Positions 37,031 through 45,609 of a stretch of 64,000 nucleotides of DNA are shown in pieces. The stretch is taken from positions 1,503,262 to 1,567,261 of the forward strand of contig NZ_CP016604.1 in the NCBI RefSeq assembly GCF_009684715.1. The letters run 5' to 3'. Position 1 is the first letter of the stretch; each line of letters opens with the position of its first letter. This DNA comes from Otariodibacter oris. GTDB taxonomy: Bacteria > Pseudomonadota > Gammaproteobacteria > Enterobacterales > Pasteurellaceae. A program made the position numbers and the translations under genes. A model generated the notes under the pieces. That model saw only the letters and a list, made by a program, of their open reading frames with translations, was not told where the DNA came from and did no database searches.

Positions 37031-37130
37031 TTATTTTACCTTCATTAAATATAATAAGTTTGATAGTATTTATACTTTAAGAAAAGTTATTATAATAATT
37101 AACTATTTATATAAAAAACAACCAAAACAT

Positions 37131-39038
37131 TTAAAACTCAATATCTGTGATATTGTATTTTTTAATTAAAAATCTAGTAATATAAGATTCTTTTTTTAAT
37201 CTCATAAATCTATATTTTTCTTTTTCTGAAAAATAAGGTATGCTAAAATTTTTTATATAACTTTTTGATAATGCAAAATAATTATTTGAATATGGCTTAC
37301 TTGTTTTTTTAATATAATACCAAAAAACCTTATTTTTTAAAATTTTTTGAACAAACTTTAAATCACATTCAGAGTTTGAAATTAATGAGTATCCATTATA
37401 AAACAATAGTTCTTTATCATCTGTATATACAAAATAAGGGGCATCTGACATATAAGGAAAAAGTAATTTTAATCCGGATATGGTTAAAGCTTGACTCCTT
37501 CCATATGCATACCATGTATCATATTTCCTTTGACCTTTGTCTCTTTTGGCTAATTCATCTTTTTGTGAACACAAATATTCATATGCTTTAGGATAATTAT
37601 GTCTAAATATATCTTCTTCGATTACTTTTACTAATTTAGTATATGTTTTTTTTGATGAATCAAGTTTATTATTTTGAATAATTTCATATGGAAAAATAAT
37701 CTTTTCCATGAAATTATCTAAATCAAACTCTGTTTTCAGTATATTTGGCTTTATAACATCACGACAAATATCTTTCTCTATTTGAACTATTACATCACCT
37801 TTTTTAAAATAGAAAAAAATATCATCCTCTGATATAGGAGAAAATATGTATATATTATTTCTTAATGTAGCAAATCCATTTTTAATATCAAATAACTCTC
37901 CTAATTTTTTACCTGCTGTTTCTAACTTCTGTAAATTAAGCTTAACCTTTGCACTTTCTAATTGCCAACCATCAATATCATTTAAATTTTTATAATCAAA
38001 TATAATAAAATCATTATTCATTAATTTATTTATTTGATGAGGATTAGTATTAGTATAAGCTAGATCCCCATTCCTTCTTTCAATTAAACAAATACACGTA
38101 TATGTTAATCTTGATTTAAATACTTGTTCACTACCGAAATCAATAAGCCTAAAATTATATTTTCCTTCTGAGAAAAATTTTCTTAATGCTCGTCCATTTA
38201 AACTACGATAAAAATTATTTACAGTAATATAACCTAATATTCCGTTATTTTTCAATAAATCTAGCCCTATCTGGAAAAATGGAATATATAGATCCAATTT
38301 TCCAGTTGAAGAAACTGACCAATTCCTCATAAGCATTTTTGTATAATCATCTAAATTTGATGAGCCAACATATGGTGGATTTCCAACAATAGCATCAAAA
38401 CTAGAATCTCTAATAAATGGAATTTTACTCCAATTAAAATCCAATGTATTTCCTTCGAATAAATTAAATTCAAAATACTCCCTATCCTCACCATTTATAA
38501 TGGCATATAAAATTAATAATATTTTTGTTCTAGTAATACTATATTCTTTAATATCTATCCCAAAAATATTTTCTTTGTATATATCAAAAAAGGTTTTACC
38601 AATTCTTTTTCTATACTCCTCTGCTATAGTTTTAAAAAAACCACCACAACCACATGCTATATCTGCAATTTTTAGACTGTCAATATATTTTCTCTCATAC
38701 TTAATTTCAAAGCTATTTAGCACCTGCTCTACAATATATTTCCTAATATATTCAGGAGTAAAAACAGCACCATTAATTTCTTTATCTTCAGGAGAAATAA
38801 TAAATTCAAAAAGCTCAATCAATAATTCAATATCAAAATTTGAATTAAACAAAGATGTGAAACATTTTAGATGTTCATATTCTAATTTATTTTCTTCATT
38901 TATTAAAAAAGATCTAATAAATTTGTTTTTTATGTGTAAAATATTATTCAACTTAATAAAAGATGAAACTAATAATCTATTTACATCCTGTTCATTATAT
39001 GAATAGCCTTTAAGATATTTCAGTATATTTGTATTCAT
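37131..39038 (-). CDS. N6-adenine DNA methyltransferase with target-recognition-like C-terminus
   Basis: A 635-residue protein. Residues 90-98 (GAVFTPEYI) are motif X, 123-135 (KIADIACGCGGFF) the SAM-binding motif I, about 158-166 (IFGIDIKEY) motif II, and 215-223 (DAIVGNPPY) catalytic motif IV. From about 380 on, LGELFDIKNGFATLRNNIYIF starts a TaqI-like specificity region that continues to the C-terminus (FALSKSYIKNFSIPYFSEKE). This is the layout of Eco57I/TaqI-like gamma-class methylases, without the N-terminal PD-(D/E)XK nuclease of type IIG enzymes. It is last in the four-gene operon, 3 bases after the preceding stop. Very AT-rich (a sampled line at 37141 has 13% GC). Confidence 0.88.
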   Translation of the reverse strand: MNTNILKYLKGYSYNEQDVNRLLVSSFIKLNNILHIKNKFIRSFLINEENKLEYEHLKCFTSLFNSNFDIELLIELFEFIISPEDKEINGAVFTPEYIRKYIVEQVLNSFEIKYERKYIDSLKIADIACGCGGFFKTIAEEYRKRIGKTFFDIYKENIFGIDIKEYSITRTKILLILYAIINGEDREYFEFNLFEGNTLDFNWSKIPFIRDSSFDAIVGNPPYVGSSNLDDYTKMLMRNWSVSSTGKLDLYIPFFQIGLDLLKNNGILGYITVNNFYRSLNGRALRKFFSEGKYNFRLIDFGSEQVFKSRLTYTCICLIERRNGDLAYTNTNPHQINKLMNNDFIIFDYKNLNDIDGWQLESAKVKLNLQKLETAGKKLGELFDIKNGFATLRNNIYIFSPISEDDIFFYFKKGDVIVQIEKDICRDVIKPNILKTEFDLDNFMEKIIFPYEIIQNNKLDSSKKTYTKLVKVIEEDIFRHNYPKAYEYLCSQKDELAKRDKGQRKYDTWYAYGRSQALTISGLKLLFPYMSDAPYFVYTDDKELLFYNGYSLISNSECDLKFVQKILKNKVFWYYIKKTSKPYSNNYFALSKSYIKNFSIPYFSEKEKYRFMRLKKESYITRFLIKKYNITDIEF

Positions 39039-39041
39039 AGT

Positions 39042-39767
39042 TCACTTAATGTATAAAGGGAAAACCTTATTGATAGTAAAATCATTGTGAGTATTTGCAA
39101 GAGAAAAAGCTTTAAAATAGGGAACCCATAAGCGTTCCTGTGCCCTTTTTATAATTTCTTGATAATCATAATTTTCTAAAATCTCATTGACAAAATTATA
39201 ATCTTTTCTACTATAAAAATTATTTATTATAAAGTGAATTCCTAAAAAAATATCCATAGGGGGATGAGGTATTCTTGGAGCTGAAAGAATACCTAAATCT
39301 CCCGTATCACACTTATCTATAAATCTCCCCCCAAATTGAAAATGATATGATGGGTGAGTAAATCTTGGAATTCCGTCTCCACCACTTTCTGATTCAATAT
39401 GTCTATCTAAATGCCAGCAACTTTTTAGGGGTGCTTCTTTTTCAAAAGTATATCCCGTTATGTTTATTTCAAATAGATATTCTGATATACAATCTTCATT
39501 AAAAGTATTAGATTTATCTATAGAGATAGAGTTATCAAAAAATATCTGGTATTCTTCCATATCTACTGGGAGACTTCCAGAAATTTTCTTACTTATTTTA
39601 AAAGGAATATTATTTAATGTATATTTAATACTATGACTATGAGGATTGGATAACGTCCCTATTATAGTGTATATTGGATCAATTTGACATGGCACGTGAT
39701 ATTGTTCAAGTAGTTCTGCAAACGTCTGTAAATCTTTATGAAAACTTCTAATTTCCCAATTCTTCAT
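39042..39767 (-). CDS. Unknown protein with conserved-looking His/Asp cluster
   Basis: A 241-residue soluble protein that I do not recognise. The middle is rich in possible metal or catalytic residues: W118-H119-L-D121-R-H123, then H138-P-S-Y141-H142-F-Q-F-G-G, then R165-I-P-H168-P-P-M-D172. The N-terminal 100 residues look like beta-strands. The start overlaps the receiver gene by 20 bases, and the methylase follows after 3 bases, so it is an integral member of the operon. A hydrolase or nuclease role is only a guess from the His/Asp pattern. Confidence 0.75.
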   Translation of the reverse strand: MKNWEIRSFHKDLQTFAELLEQYHVPCQIDPIYTIIGTLSNPHSHSIKYTLNNIPFKISKKISGSLPVDMEEYQIFFDNSISIDKSNTFNEDCISEYLFEINITGYTFEKEAPLKSCWHLDRHIESESGGDGIPRFTHPSYHFQFGGRFIDKCDTGDLGILSAPRIPHPPMDIFLGIHFIINNFYSRKDYNFVNEILENYDYQEIIKRAQERLWVPYFKAFSLANTHNDFTINKVFPLYIK

Positions 39768-40830
39768 TAGCTAAACCTCTTAAATATTTCACATCCAACT
39801 CATTAATATCATTTTTTATTTCCTCTATTTTTTCCAAAGCATATTGTACAGAATAATATTCCTGCTCTTGCCATACTTTATAATCCTTTTTTAATATATT
39901 TATCCCATCAAAAGGATCTAAAGGTGTATTATTTCCTTTACATATAGTCCAAAACTTGTCACTCTTATTAAAGGGTGATTTAATTTCATAAATCAACTTC
40001 AAATCAAATTTATTATTTAATAAATCGACCCTTTCTTTTGCTCCTAACCGTCTTAAGTGATTAATTTCAAAATTAGACTTCCACCACTCTTCTAATTTTT
40101 CTGCCCACCAACGGTCATTTGCATCACTAAAAATACCTTTATATTTAAATTTCTCAAATTGCTCTAAAAGTTGTTCCCAATCCTTTTTAGATTTTTTTTT
40201 ATTTACACCTAATCTTGCAGATAATATGTCCTCTCCAATTAAAGGACCTATAGCATGAATAAGATTATCATCTACAAACCTACTATATTCATAAACCTGA
40301 TGGCCTTTCATTTCTAGCTTTTTAGGGATCAATGAATTAAGTAATGCATAATCCTCCTCTCTCTCTAGTCCCAAAATTTTAAATATATTAAAATTTTCAC
40401 TTCTAATTTTATTATAAGAATTAATATAAGATATTATTTTTTCTTTAAATTTCTCTTTATCGTTATCAAATATTTGTTTTTTTACCGCATAATCAAAAAG
40501 ATCTTGGTTAAGAAAATCTCTATAAAAATCAGCTATATTATTTTCATTTGAAATTAATATAATAGGAATTTCCATTTTCTGCTGGGAGTGCTTATTCCTT
40601 ATCGTAGCAGCAATAGTTGGCGCATCATAACACACGCTATACTTTCCTTCAGTCAACCTGTAATCCATAACAATAATATCTGGGCTATATTCATTTATAT
40701 TACGCATTACCTTATTCATATCACTATTAGGATCATATTGTACTACATGGAATCCTATCTGTTCTAAATCTTTTTTTCTACTCTCTGAACTACTATCTTC
40801 TATATAATATAATCTATACTCCATATTCAT
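39748..40830 (-). CDS. Receiver-domain protein with unknown C-terminal half
   Basis: A 360-residue protein. Residues 5-130 form a full response-regulator receiver: acidic pair E11-D12, phospho-acceptor D56 (VMDYRL), S94 (ILISNE) and K117 (AVKK). Residues 140-360 are not a known DNA-binding output domain; they include WWAEKLEEWW and a strand-like stretch with D269 and E282-I-K284, which resembles the D...ExK pattern of PD-(D/E)XK nucleases. The start overlaps the kinase stop by 17 bases. A run of nine A in the coding strand (40192-40200) lies at codons 211-213. Function is inferred as phospho-controlled effector. Confidence 0.82.
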   Translation of the reverse strand: MNMEYRLYYIEDSSSESRKKDLEQIGFHVVQYDPNSDMNKVMRNINEYSPDIIVMDYRLTEGKYSVCYDAPTIAATIRNKHSQQKMEIPIILISNENNIADFYRDFLNQDLFDYAVKKQIFDNDKEKFKEKIISYINSYNKIRSENFNIFKILGLEREEDYALLNSLIPKKLEMKGHQVYEYSRFVDDNLIHAIGPLIGEDILSARLGVNKKKSKKDWEQLLEQFEKFKYKGIFSDANDRWWAEKLEEWWKSNFEINHLRRLGAKERVDLLNNKFDLKLIYEIKSPFNKSDKFWTICKGNNTPLDPFDGINILKKDYKVWQEQEYYSVQYALEKIEEIKNDINELDVKYLRGLANEELGN

Positions 40831-43123
40831 CCAACTCCTTATCTGTTGCTTTTGGTATCTCTATATATATTGTAGTTGAAAAACCTTCCTTAGGTTTATC
40901 CACATATATCTTTCCTCTATAACTTGATAAAATATCTTTTACTATTTTCAAGCCTAAACCAGTGCCGGTTACCTCATTGCTCGAATTTAAATTATCTAGG
41001 GTATTTGGAGAAGATGTTGTAAAGAACTCATCAAAGATATGATCTTTAATATCATCACTAATTCCATCACCTGTATCTGAAAACTTTAAAAAAATCTTAT
41101 TTTCAGTTTTTCCACACTGAATATCTAATACTCCATCATTTTTAGATCTTCTAATTGCTTTTTTCGCATTAGTATATAAATTAAATAAAATTGAAGACCA
41201 TTCAGAAGGATGCATAGGAGTAGTAAATAAATAATAAGCACTTCTAATTGGCTTTTCAAACTTAATATTACTTTTTTTTGTATCATTTTGAATATTTTCC
41301 CAAAACTCCTCTATTTTGTTTTGCAATTCAATAGGTCTTAAACTACGACTTACATTTTGAGAAATTACAGTATCAAAATATGAAGTATAAGTTTGAAATG
41401 TAGCAACATTTTTTTGTAATATGCTCAATCGGTTAAATATCTCACTATCTGACTCTAAATTTTGCAATAAAAATTTAAGATCAGAATTCATAGATAATAT
41501 ATAGTCTTTTACCTCATGTATAAATAGAGCTATTGTTAAACCAACACTACCCAACACTCTAAGCATCGCTTTTTCTTTTAAATTTTTCTCTTTTTCTTCT
41601 TGACTAACCTTTTTTAACTCTTCTATTTCCTGCCTTACTTGCTGAATTTTTTTCTTTCTCTTTCTTTTAACCTCTAAGCTTCCTGAATCCTTTTCCAGTT
41701 CCCTATCTAATTCTTCTATTGTAAAAGCAATATTTTTTATTCTGACTTCAATAGCTTCATATATTCCATCCACTTGTTTTTGTCCTGATACTATTTTAAC
41801 ATTTCTTTCTTCTGCTATTTTTAAAACAGAGGTCATAATTGTTCTATATACAAAATTTTGTAATTGAATAAATGCTTCATTTTCTACTAACCCTTCTCTA
41901 CTAGATGTTTCATTAAATTCATGATTTTTATCAGTTAATTCCACAAATCCAAAAAAATTAATATTTGCATGTACTGGCAAGATAGTTCTTTTTACTGTTG
42001 AATTATCTAAGCCTAACCAATCATTATTTGGTTCACCGTAAGGTAACACTCTAAATCCATTTCTATATAAACGAATACCTCCTTGGGTTCTGGCTAATTT
42101 TCTAATACTGGATTCCTGCATTTTAGGAACAAGACCAGAATTATATATAAAATAATATGCTCTAAATCTTACATTTCTCAATTTTGAGAAAGGAAGATCA
42201 TTATTATCTGGATCACTACTAATATTATCCAGTTCATTAATATCTAATTTCTTACTTTCCACAGAATATATCCCATATCCATCCTTATCTACAATACCCT
42301 CAATAATTGCTGTTGCATGATCATAAACCATGCTTTTATCATCAGCTATATTAATTTGTTTACCATTAACTATCTTTGAAAAATAGACTTTAAACCCTGG
42401 ATCTATATTTTTATAAATCACATGTTCCTTTACTTCTGATAAGGGAAAAGGTTGCAATATATCACTAACATATTTATATATTCTTCTAATTGATGCTTCT
42501 GACCACTTATCTTTTAAACCTTGAATTTTTAAAATGGTACCATGAGCTTGTTTTTTAGGAAATTGCGTATGTATTTCATTATTTATAAATAATAGGTCTG
42601 TATCATTAGAATATTTATTCCAATTAATATCTATGATAAGGGATTCTTCACTTTCAGCTGTCTGAGTTATAATAGTTAATTTTTCTCCTAATCTTTGCAC
42701 AGAAAATCGTCCAATTCCTTTTTGTCCCGCACGAGTTCTTTTAAATTTATCAGAAGTAGGGTTATGTAACTTATCTGTAGAAGATATTCTCATAAAGCCA
42801 TTAATTAGTTGCTCTCTAGTCATTCCACTGCCATTATCTTCAATCACTAAAGTTCCACCGATATCTTCTGAATTTTCAAACCTAATATTTACTTTCGTAG
42901 CATCAGCATCGTACGCATTTTTTACCAATTCAGAAACAGCTGTTTCTTGTCGAGCAACTAGTTCACTTCCTAATCTATCAATAACTCCCGCATCGACACT
43001 AAAGCGTACGTTATTACTATCAAATTTTGATAAATCCATTGACAATTCTAAAATTTTACTGTAGTTCTTTGGATCATTTTGCAATATCTGCTCTATTTTT
43101 TTTCTTATCTCTTCTTCATTCAT
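40814..43123 (-). CDS. Soluble dual-GHKL ATPase/histidine kinase (MORC-like N-terminus)
   Basis: A 769-residue cytoplasmic protein with no membrane segment. Residues about 38-200 are a MORC/Hsp90-type GHKL domain: E65...N69-A-Y-D72, D96-N-G-S-G100, and GQKGIGRFSVQRLG near 133-146. A linker with a strong coiled coil (about 470-515) follows. The C-terminal quarter is a histidine kinase: phospho-acceptor H536 in ALFIHEVKDYI, N-box N652 (LYTNAKKAI), G1 box D683-TGDG, F-box FDEFFTT, G2 box GTGLGLKIV near 720. Hence it has two separate ATP sites. The first ATG (43123) lacks a clear ribosome site; Met29 is an alternative start. First gene of the operon. Confidence 0.87.
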   Translation of the reverse strand: MNEEEIRKKIEQILQNDPKNYSKILELSMDLSKFDSNNVRFSVDAGVIDRLGSELVARQETAVSELVKNAYDADATKVNIRFENSEDIGGTLVIEDNGSGMTREQLINGFMRISSTDKLHNPTSDKFKRTRAGQKGIGRFSVQRLGEKLTIITQTAESEESLIIDINWNKYSNDTDLLFINNEIHTQFPKKQAHGTILKIQGLKDKWSEASIRRIYKYVSDILQPFPLSEVKEHVIYKNIDPGFKVYFSKIVNGKQINIADDKSMVYDHATAIIEGIVDKDGYGIYSVESKKLDINELDNISSDPDNNDLPFSKLRNVRFRAYYFIYNSGLVPKMQESSIRKLARTQGGIRLYRNGFRVLPYGEPNNDWLGLDNSTVKRTILPVHANINFFGFVELTDKNHEFNETSSREGLVENEAFIQLQNFVYRTIMTSVLKIAEERNVKIVSGQKQVDGIYEAIEVRIKNIAFTIEELDRELEKDSGSLEVKRKRKKKIQQVRQEIEELKKVSQEEKEKNLKEKAMLRVLGSVGLTIALFIHEVKDYILSMNSDLKFLLQNLESDSEIFNRLSILQKNVATFQTYTSYFDTVISQNVSRSLRPIELQNKIEEFWENIQNDTKKSNIKFEKPIRSAYYLFTTPMHPSEWSSILFNLYTNAKKAIRRSKNDGVLDIQCGKTENKIFLKFSDTGDGISDDIKDHIFDEFFTTSSPNTLDNLNSSNEVTGTGLGLKIVKDILSSYRGKIYVDKPKEGFSTTIYIEIPKATDKELDEYGV

Positions 43124-43492
43124 CTGGTAGGCACTCGATAGATTTTAAAATACATAGTTGTAAATTTACCATTATTGACGTTTTAAACAAGAAATTTTTC
43201 CCAAGGCAACTATTAATATTAATTTGAAAGATATCGATCTATCATTTAACACTATTAGTACTAATAATACGAATTAAATCCCATCTATTTATACAAAACT
43301 ATAAGAACTTCTTATTTTTCTATAAAATAGAAAAAAATAACACTATATTATCATTAATGTTTGTAGCAAAAATCCTGATAACATTACTCTACCATAAAGC
43401 TAAACCACCAAGCTTTTGCTATTTCTAGTAAGCTATTTTGTATGGTATATTATTTTCCCTATCAGAAAACCTTACAATCAAAATGGTAAAGT
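43124..43492. other. AT-rich intergenic region between the four-gene system and ywiC-like gene
   Basis: 369 bases with no gene. It must hold the divergent promoters of the kinase operon (minus) and the YwiC-like gene (plus). I see a hairpin TTATTTTTCTA / TAGAAAAAAATAA at about 43310-43338 and a TATGGTATATTATTT stretch at about 43440 that could be a -10 region for the plus-strand gene. No tRNA, direct repeat or integrase remnant is visible. Confidence 0.45.
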
Positions 43493-44383: not shown

Positions 44384-44983
44384 CTAACTAATAAAAGGGT
44401 CTTCGTCATAAGCTTCTTTTACTAACCCAAAACCTGTTAAACCTGACTCAATCACTCGTTGTTTAAATGCTTCTGTGGCAAAAATTCTTGTTTCCATATC
44501 AGGTGTCAAAAATAAGTAATTATCTCCTACCTCTTCTTCTCTCATTACCCATTTCTTTAAAGCACTAAAATATCCTTTCCCTTTATTTTTACCATATTTT
44601 TGTATGTCTCCTATTGTTCTTTCTCGATCAATACAATCAATTACCGTATGCACCACTACCATATAATAAGGTTCATTGCTATCATCTAACGTAACAGGGT
44701 ATAACGTAGCGTGTTTTTCCCATATATCTGCAAGGGCATTTTTTGCTTTTTCACTAATTAAATGCGTAGAACCACTTCGTACAACATCCGTAACTTTGCA
44801 AGGTTTACGCTTCTTCCACTCTTCTCCTAAATATTGAGTGAGTACTGGTGTTTCCCATTTATCAAGCGGGGGTAAAGGATCTCCAATAATGGCATCATAC
44901 CAACACATCATTCTTTCATACTTATCAGTTTTTCCGAGATATCCTGCGTATTTAATACTAGGGTTAGTCCACCAATAAATCAT
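44384..44983 (-). CDS. Imm11-like (DUF1629) immunity protein, copy 2
   Basis: A 199-residue soluble protein, roughly three quarters identical to the upstream neighbour and equal in length. Motifs: MIYWWTNPSIKYAGYLGKTDKYERM, LDKWETPVLTQYLGEEWKKR, HLISEKAKNALADIWEKHATLYPV, VIDCIDRER, FATEAFKQRVIESGLTGFGL. The pattern (Ser-linked segment, IDCID, ESGLTGF) resembles the Imm11/DUF1629 immunity family of polymorphic toxin systems; assignment is by eye. 26 bases separate it from copy 1. No toxin gene is adjacent. Confidence 0.65.
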   Translation of the reverse strand: MIYWWTNPSIKYAGYLGKTDKYERMMCWYDAIIGDPLPPLDKWETPVLTQYLGEEWKKRKPCKVTDVVRSGSTHLISEKAKNALADIWEKHATLYPVTLDDSNEPYYMVVVHTVIDCIDRERTIGDIQKYGKNKGKGYFSALKKWVMREEEVGDNYLFLTPDMETRIFATEAFKQRVIESGLTGFGLVKEAYDEDPFIS

Positions 44984-45009
44984 TTTTTTCTCCTATTTTT
45001 TAGTAACAA

Positions 45010-45609
45010 CTAACTAATAAACGGGTCTTCGTCCCAAAATTCTTTTCTAAGTCCAAAACCTGTTAAACCTGATTCAATTACTCTCTGTTTAAAAGCTTCT
45101 GTCGCATAAATAACCGTTTCATCATCGGGTAATACAAATAAATAGTTATCTCCAATTTCTTCTTCTCTAAATACCCAGTTATTTATCACACTGAAATAGC
45201 CTTTCCCTTTATTCTTACCATACTTTTGTATTCTTCCTTCCGACTTTTCCCGATCGATACAATCAATCTCAGTATGGACTACCACCATATAATAAGGTTC
45301 ATTGCTATCATCTAACGTAACAGGGTATAACGTAGCGTGTTTTTCCCATATATCCGCAAGGACGTTTTTTGCCTTTTCATTAATTAAATGAACAGATGAT
45401 GCACTAACTACATCAGTTAGCGATCTCGGTTTTCGCTCTTTCCCCTCTTCACCTAAATATTGAGTAAGTACTGGGGTCTCCCACTTATCAAGGGAGGGTA
45501 ATGGATATCCTGAAACAGAATTATTCCAGTACATCATCCGCTCATATTTATCTGTTTTTCCAATATATCCTGCATATTTAATGCCAGCACTAGCCCACCA
45601 ATAAATCAT
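45010..45609 (-). CDS. Imm11-like (DUF1629) immunity protein, copy 1
   Basis: A 199-residue paralogue of the 44384-44983 gene and probably first in a two-gene transcript. Differences concentrate at residues 10-35 and about 62-80 and in the last 30 residues, whereas the block NVLADIWEKHATLYPVTLDD is nearly unchanged. This looks like a recent duplication with divergence at surfaces that could contact different toxin variants. AGGAGAA precedes the ATG. A secreted toxin partner, Rhs or CdiA fragment is not visible in the window. Confidence 0.65.
   Translation of the reverse strand: MIYWWASAGIKYAGYIGKTDKYERMMYWNNSVSGYPLPSLDKWETPVLTQYLGEEGKERKPRSLTDVVSASSVHLINEKAKNVLADIWEKHATLYPVTLDDSNEPYYMVVVHTEIDCIDREKSEGRIQKYGKNKGKGYFSVINNWVFREEEIGDNYLFVLPDDETVIYATEAFKQRVIESGLTGFGLRKEFWDEDPFIS

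Follow-up and report, generated by a model that had tools for sequence, protein, structure and literature searches.

What kind of system is formed by four tightly packed genes in a 64,000-nucleotide stretch of Otariodibacter oris contig NZ_CP016604.1? This whole stretch is called the window here, and the four genes, which encode a kinase (HK), a receiver protein (RR), a candidate effector (P2) and a predicted DNA methyltransferase (MT), are referred to as the cassette. The reading favoured, with a probability of about 0.55, is that the cassette is a mobile anti-phage (anti-foreign-DNA) unit resembling restriction-modification, the destructive arm of which would be gated by a phosphorelay. It is a real system, probably with an anti-phage role, because its genes form a co-occurring set with conserved residues, it has been laterally transferred, and it occurs at a defence hotspot of prophages.

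Composition and distribution of the cassette

All four open reading frames are present and uninterrupted on the minus strand at 37131-43123. HK and RR overlap by 17 bp, RR and P2 by 20 bp, and a gap of 3 bp separates P2 from MT; the compact same-strand arrangement described in an earlier, sequence-only reading of this DNA was thus borne out in coordinates, overlaps and integrity. The low GC content noted in that reading was also found, with 27.1% in the cassette versus 36.6% in the remainder of the window. The features are as follows.

37056-43399, no strand: inserted segment, approximate limits, about 6.3 kb; no counterpart in the sister species, from alignment to a congeneric genome (G001, L090).
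40814-43123, minus: HK, 769 aa, a soluble kinase that contains two ATPase modules of the GHKL type (Pfam HATPase_c_3 and HATPase_c; the motifs of the ATP sites and H536-E537 are conserved over 40 sets).
42536-42946, minus: N-terminal HATPase_c_3 (MutL/MORC-type) module of HK, residues 60-196 (PF13589, E 2.4e-24; NF050001).
41516-41518, minus: codon of H536, candidate phospho-acceptor of HK; present in the window and conserved in the sets.
40850-41194, minus: C-terminal HATPase_c kinase module of HK, residues 644-758 (PF02518, E 3.8e-25).
39748-40830, minus: RR, receiver domain plus a C-terminal domain without known family, 360 aa (AlphaFold2 model, pLDDT 91.6; fold match to solved receivers, E about 3e-5).
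40471-40824, minus: receiver domain of RR with D12, D56, S94 and K118 (D12, D56 and K118 in 40/40; position 94 S or T).
39751-40470, minus: C-terminal domain of RR, mostly helical, motif YxGxFS...RWW, invariant C297 and W320 (alignment, AlphaFold2 model and residue count; no Pfam match).
39042-39767, minus: P2, candidate effector without known family, 241 aa (no Pfam, PADLOC or NCBIfam match; AlphaFold2 pLDDT 87.9; no Foldseek match in PDB or BFVD).
39342-39413, minus: invariant segment of P2 with H119, D121, H138 and H142 (HLDxH ... HPxYHF; alignment of 43-44 sequences and residue count over 40 sets).
37131-39038, minus: MT, predicted N6-adenine DNA methyltransferase, Eco57I/BseCI-like, 635 aa (PF07669, E 1.7e-30; PDLC03335, E 3.7e-106; CamA and BseCI in PDB).
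38370-38381, minus: catalytic motif NPPY of MT, residues 220-223 (24/24).

H536 of HK and D56 of RR, which had been described as intact, and the NPPY motif of MT were all found in the window proteins, and NPPY is kept in all 24 methyltransferases compared. Selection appears to act on both HK ATPases and on the relay, since the ATP-binding residues at both GHKL sites, H536-E537 and D12/D56/K118 of the receiver (each 40/40), and H119/D121/H138/H142/R165 of P2 are conserved over 40 sets. The receiver domain is weakly recognised by sequence (PF00072, E 0.0024, under the cut-off). The AlphaFold2 model, in which strands 3, 4 and 5 end at D56, S94 and K118, and the Foldseek match to solved receivers settle this weak match, so the N-terminal part of RR can be assigned as a receiver. 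The remaining 240 residues matched no Pfam family, and the earlier statement that RR carries no DNA-binding output domain holds at this level.

A P2 profile scan of about 85,000 genomes yielded 45 genomic loci, which are spread over at least six phyla. HK, RR, P2 and an adenine methyltransferase stand together in 39 of these loci, and the other 6 are truncated at contig ends. An automatic count gave 36 of the complete sets; three more (L059, L065 and L066), with P2 under the score threshold of that count, were found separately. This co-occurrence, named in advance as a check, was therefore confirmed, and the four genes are a consistently co-occurring and conserved system. An adenine methyltransferase is part of every complete set and comes in two types: the BseCI-like form of the window, located downstream, and a second N6 type, located upstream. 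No conserved fifth gene was found, the flanking families common to the loci being AbiE pairs and mobile-element genes.

The cassette is rare even within phyla. Among 396 Bacteroidota and 249 Pseudomonadota genomes that were sampled, P2 and RR occur in the same genomes, and neither P2 nor a window-type RR was seen apart from the set in these samples, a result of low power given at most one carrier per sample besides the reference genome. Exactly one P2 was present in each of 16 carrier genomes (16/16). A first sample of 148 relatives contained one carrier, from the same order, in which P2 and RR stand side by side with HK and a methyltransferase between transposase genes. Searches of complete E. 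coli genomes with the window cassette (near mode) and with the RR-P2 DNA of Rahnella (distant mode) were both negative.

Lateral acquisition and genomic surroundings

In the congeneric genome, genes for an SMP-30-like and a YwiC-like protein lie about 59 bp apart, versus an insert of about 6.3 kb between them in the window. Moreover, the HK of the window nests in the tree inside Bacteroidota with strongly supported branches, its nearest relative being 76% identical. Since the site is empty in the sister species and HK is placed within Bacteroidota, the cassette is on this comparative evidence an inserted, laterally acquired unit. A further copy is carried by a Hymenobacter plasmid. No integrase, tRNA or long direct repeat was found at the insertion ends. 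The neighbourhood of ybaB was considered as an insertion hotspot shared with another Pasteurellaceae-family genome (G043) and was rejected, because the insertion site is flanked by the SMP-30-like and YwiC-like genes, and in the relatives examined neither of these genes is close to ybaB.

Mobility is also evident from prophages. P2 was found on five viral contigs; four of these have the complete set and the fifth is truncated at its edge. The search that found them had to be based on an alignment, as scans with one sequence, the window RR or P2, were negative; phage records held no relative of the Myroides P2. Two of these contigs (L092 and L093) are P2-like prophages with CII-like and origin-nicking (gpA-type) genes, and the cassette is placed between their integrase and repressor. 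This integrase-repressor site has been described as a hotspot of anti-phage defence (PMC9122126). A gammaproteobacterial cassette of the P2-like prophage form is found at L014 7017-12914. Among the genes flanking other loci are those for AbiEii (9 of 140 proteins) and AbiEi, integrase genes and a type I methylase gene, a description from counts without a matched background. Together with the two prophage sites, these neighbours place the cassette next to defence genes, a setting that had been named as a check.

Several neighbouring genes deserve separate mention. AbiEi/AbiEii-type pairs of two different kinds directly precede the kinase in eight Bacteroidota loci (L023, L024, L031 and L055; L044, L054, L060 and L061). 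The Hymenobacter plasmid copy (L013 2324-7961) adjoins genes for a Piwi-domain protein and a DNA methyltransferase of 1.1k aa, possibly a further defence cluster. Beside the insertion, at 44384-45609 of the window, lie two tandem paralogues of 199 aa with matches to Imm11, an immunity family (E about 1e-10).

A lack of perfect uptake signal sequences inside the cassette had also been reported. It is true of both 9-mers tested and is uninformative: the 9-mer of the ACAAGCGGT type has 13 copies in 64 kb, so that a 6-kb segment should hold only about 1.2, and the absence was dropped as not significant. No structured RNA at the cassette was matched in Rfam, and promoter-like sites there are no more frequent than expected by chance.

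Proposed mechanism and competing explanations

In the mechanism that we infer, MT would methylate adenines of host DNA and so mark self. HK would detect some mark of foreign or unmodified DNA, with its N-terminal MutL/MORC-type ATPase module as the probable sensor, and would autophosphorylate on H536. The phosphoryl group would then move to D56 of RR, and phosphorylated RR would activate P2 through its C-terminal domain. P2, with its invariant His/Asp/Arg site and unmatched fold, would attack the invader, nuclease action being favoured, or halt the cell. A more specific version is advanced tentatively: a restriction-like immune system whose attack on DNA is not autonomous and needs a His-Asp phosphorelay to start it, in which the MORC-type ATPase-kinase reads the modification state of DNA and P2 is a nuclease (or other toxin) of unsolved fold.

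P2 is the likeliest effector of the set because related operons carry a bare receiver and an HNH protein where the cassette has the RR C-terminal domain and P2. Two such operons, on a Bacteroides plasmid (L019) and in another genome (L017, G261), encode a kinase with full-length but remote similarity to HK, then a bare receiver of about 210 aa and the HNH protein, together with an N6 methyltransferase; the HNH protein occupies the place of both the RR C-terminal domain and P2. By analogy, P2 may be a nuclease or other effector. The earlier statement that the cassette has no separate nuclease is correct in that none is recognised, but it may fail in function for this reason. A different arrangement is found in other Pasteurellaceae-family genomes (G043, L015 7103-11659; G026, L016 6067-10570; G068, L018 6110-12866), with a C5 methylase, a dual-GHKL kinase and an RR that has an unrelated large C-terminal domain.

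Divergence in the window-type clade is much faster for RR and P2 than for HK: identity between the window and L029 is 41-45% for RR and P2, versus 76% for HK. P2 and RR co-vary after correction for HK (partial Mantel r 0.52, p 0.0002), a relation in which neighbouring genes can also have been swapped jointly by recombination; no such link to MT was seen. Because RR and P2 co-vary beyond HK and without a link to the methyltransferase, this is support, not proof, for RR and P2 as one functional complex with a partly exchangeable methylase.

Four observations weigh against the gated restriction scheme. No nuclease signature or fold match was recognised in P2 or in the RR C-terminal domain; the confident P2 model found nothing similar in PDB or BFVD by Foldseek (best E 0.31 and 0.35), P2 had no match among PDB sequences, and five of its members matched no Pfam family even at E 10. 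This last result led to rejection, short of full exclusion, of an assignment of P2 to the DUF2290 type, which a similar HP..H motif had suggested. Secondly, a divergent HK-RR-P2-like operon on a Rhizobium sp. TH2 plasmid (L021 5983-11038) precedes a gene with a GIY-YIG nuclease annotation (DUF4357 by Pfam) and has a methylase gene upstream in divergent orientation; its RR matches the window type (hhalign E 2e-8) and its P2 is weakly similar. A weak P2 relative beside a GIY-YIG-annotated gene implies that P2 need not be the nuclease. Thirdly, divergence of RR and P2 does not track that of the methyltransferase, unlike in a simple enzyme pair with matched specificity. Finally, the flank counts, made without a matched background, are a description and not an enrichment.

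The chief rival to gated restriction is an abortive infection system similar to Detocs. Here HK, RR and P2 would themselves provide the defence, with P2 as a toxin whose target is a metabolite, RNA or a membrane; the methylase would not be half of a restriction pair but a sensor or safeguard that provides or suppresses the signal. Detocs provides the precedent for defence by kinase, receiver and effector (PMC11249213). Such a role would suit a P2 that has no nuclease signature, and a methylase that varies independently of RR and P2 and is interchangeable between two types. However, the adenine methyltransferase in every complete set and the HNH protein of the sister operons point to DNA as the target, and this alternative is considered rather doubtful.

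A second rival, in which the kinase and RR do no more than control a restriction-modification pair, is unlikely. In this scheme P2 would be an ordinary sequence-specific endonuclease that has escaped recognition and is matched to MT, and its synthesis or activity would be tuned by the relay. The wider kinase family does sit near restriction-modification genes (PMC8011034), and MT resembles type II methylases. However, RR has no recognisable DNA-binding output, RR and P2 diverge jointly and faster than HK as would be expected of a protein complex, and no covariation links P2 to MT. A host epigenetic or gene-regulatory switch, in which the relay sets methylation to alter expression with no defence role, would fit an adenine methyltransferase distantly similar in sequence to CamA beside a signalling pair, but it is very improbable for a cassette that is patchy, laterally moved, borne by plasmids and prophages, and of such rarity.

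Relation to described systems

The cassette had been said to match no system that could be named. Its proteins do score under the published Pfam families, but the general kind is known. GHKL ATPases in restriction-modification operons have been reported since 2008 (PMC2292703), and soluble HATPase_c_3/HATPase_c kinases paired with receiver-like proteins near restriction-modification genes were described in 2021 (Bellieny-Rabelo 2021, PMC8011034). The latter paper reports these pairs as a genomic pattern and is silent on phage; C5 methyltransferases dominate the linked restriction-modification genes. The cassette can be regarded as a compact, self-contained, prophage-carried form of this theme. 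If it protects, restriction would be shown to be capable of running on a phosphorelay, the wider GHKL-kinase family would gain a function, and an effector of unmatched fold would be supplied.

Among the closest described systems are the HEF_HK/Response_reg_2 pairs. Shared with them are a kinase built from HATPase_c_3, a DHp-like histidine followed by an acidic residue, and HATPase_c, an adjoining receiver-like protein with a conserved phospho-Asp, and restriction-modification genes nearby. The cassette nevertheless scores under both families. No match to HEF_HK (PF19191) exceeded the cut-off, the best sub-threshold score being that of the G101 kinase (18.2 vs 24.1 bits), and Response_reg_2 (PF19192) had no match in the window genome. 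The cassette further differs in its constant four-gene set with P2 and an N6-adenine methyltransferase, and in the large C-terminal domain of RR with its own motifs.

MORC/paraMORC proteins (PMC2292703) and the BbrUII/HgiDII GHKL restriction enzymes (NF050001) likewise have an N-terminal GHKL module with intact ATP motifs in a methylase operon. However, the cassette has no helicase, and HK carries a histidine-kinase module where a nuclease or an S5-linked extension would be expected; its match to NF050001 (E 3.5e-26, residues 40-217) scores far under the model cut-off. The sister operons with HNH share full-length kinase similarity and the same logic, and differ in the HNH protein that replaces the RR C-terminal domain and P2. 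Type II restriction-modification systems share an N6-adenine methyltransferase of the BseCI/Eco57I class with an intact catalytic motif, whereas the cassette has no recognised cognate endonuclease and has two or three extra signalling parts. Detocs has a receiver domain fused to the effector. The cassette resembles it in using kinase, receiver and effector as a putative defence, but no receiver is fused to its effector (the P2 model has no receiver fold), neither P2 nor the RR C-terminal domain has a PNP or other known Detocs effector domain, and a DNA methylase and a second GHKL module are present.

No prior description of the four-gene cassette, of P2 or of the RR C-terminal domain was found in the libraries or the open-access literature, a scope outside which subscription papers and preprints fall; all three appear undescribed as far as searched. 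In E. faecium, a strain without m6A has been reported to carry a kinase and a response regulator downstream of a type I restriction-modification system on a plasmid; both are absent from the m6A-positive strain (PMC12323599), and this is possibly another instance of the same theme.

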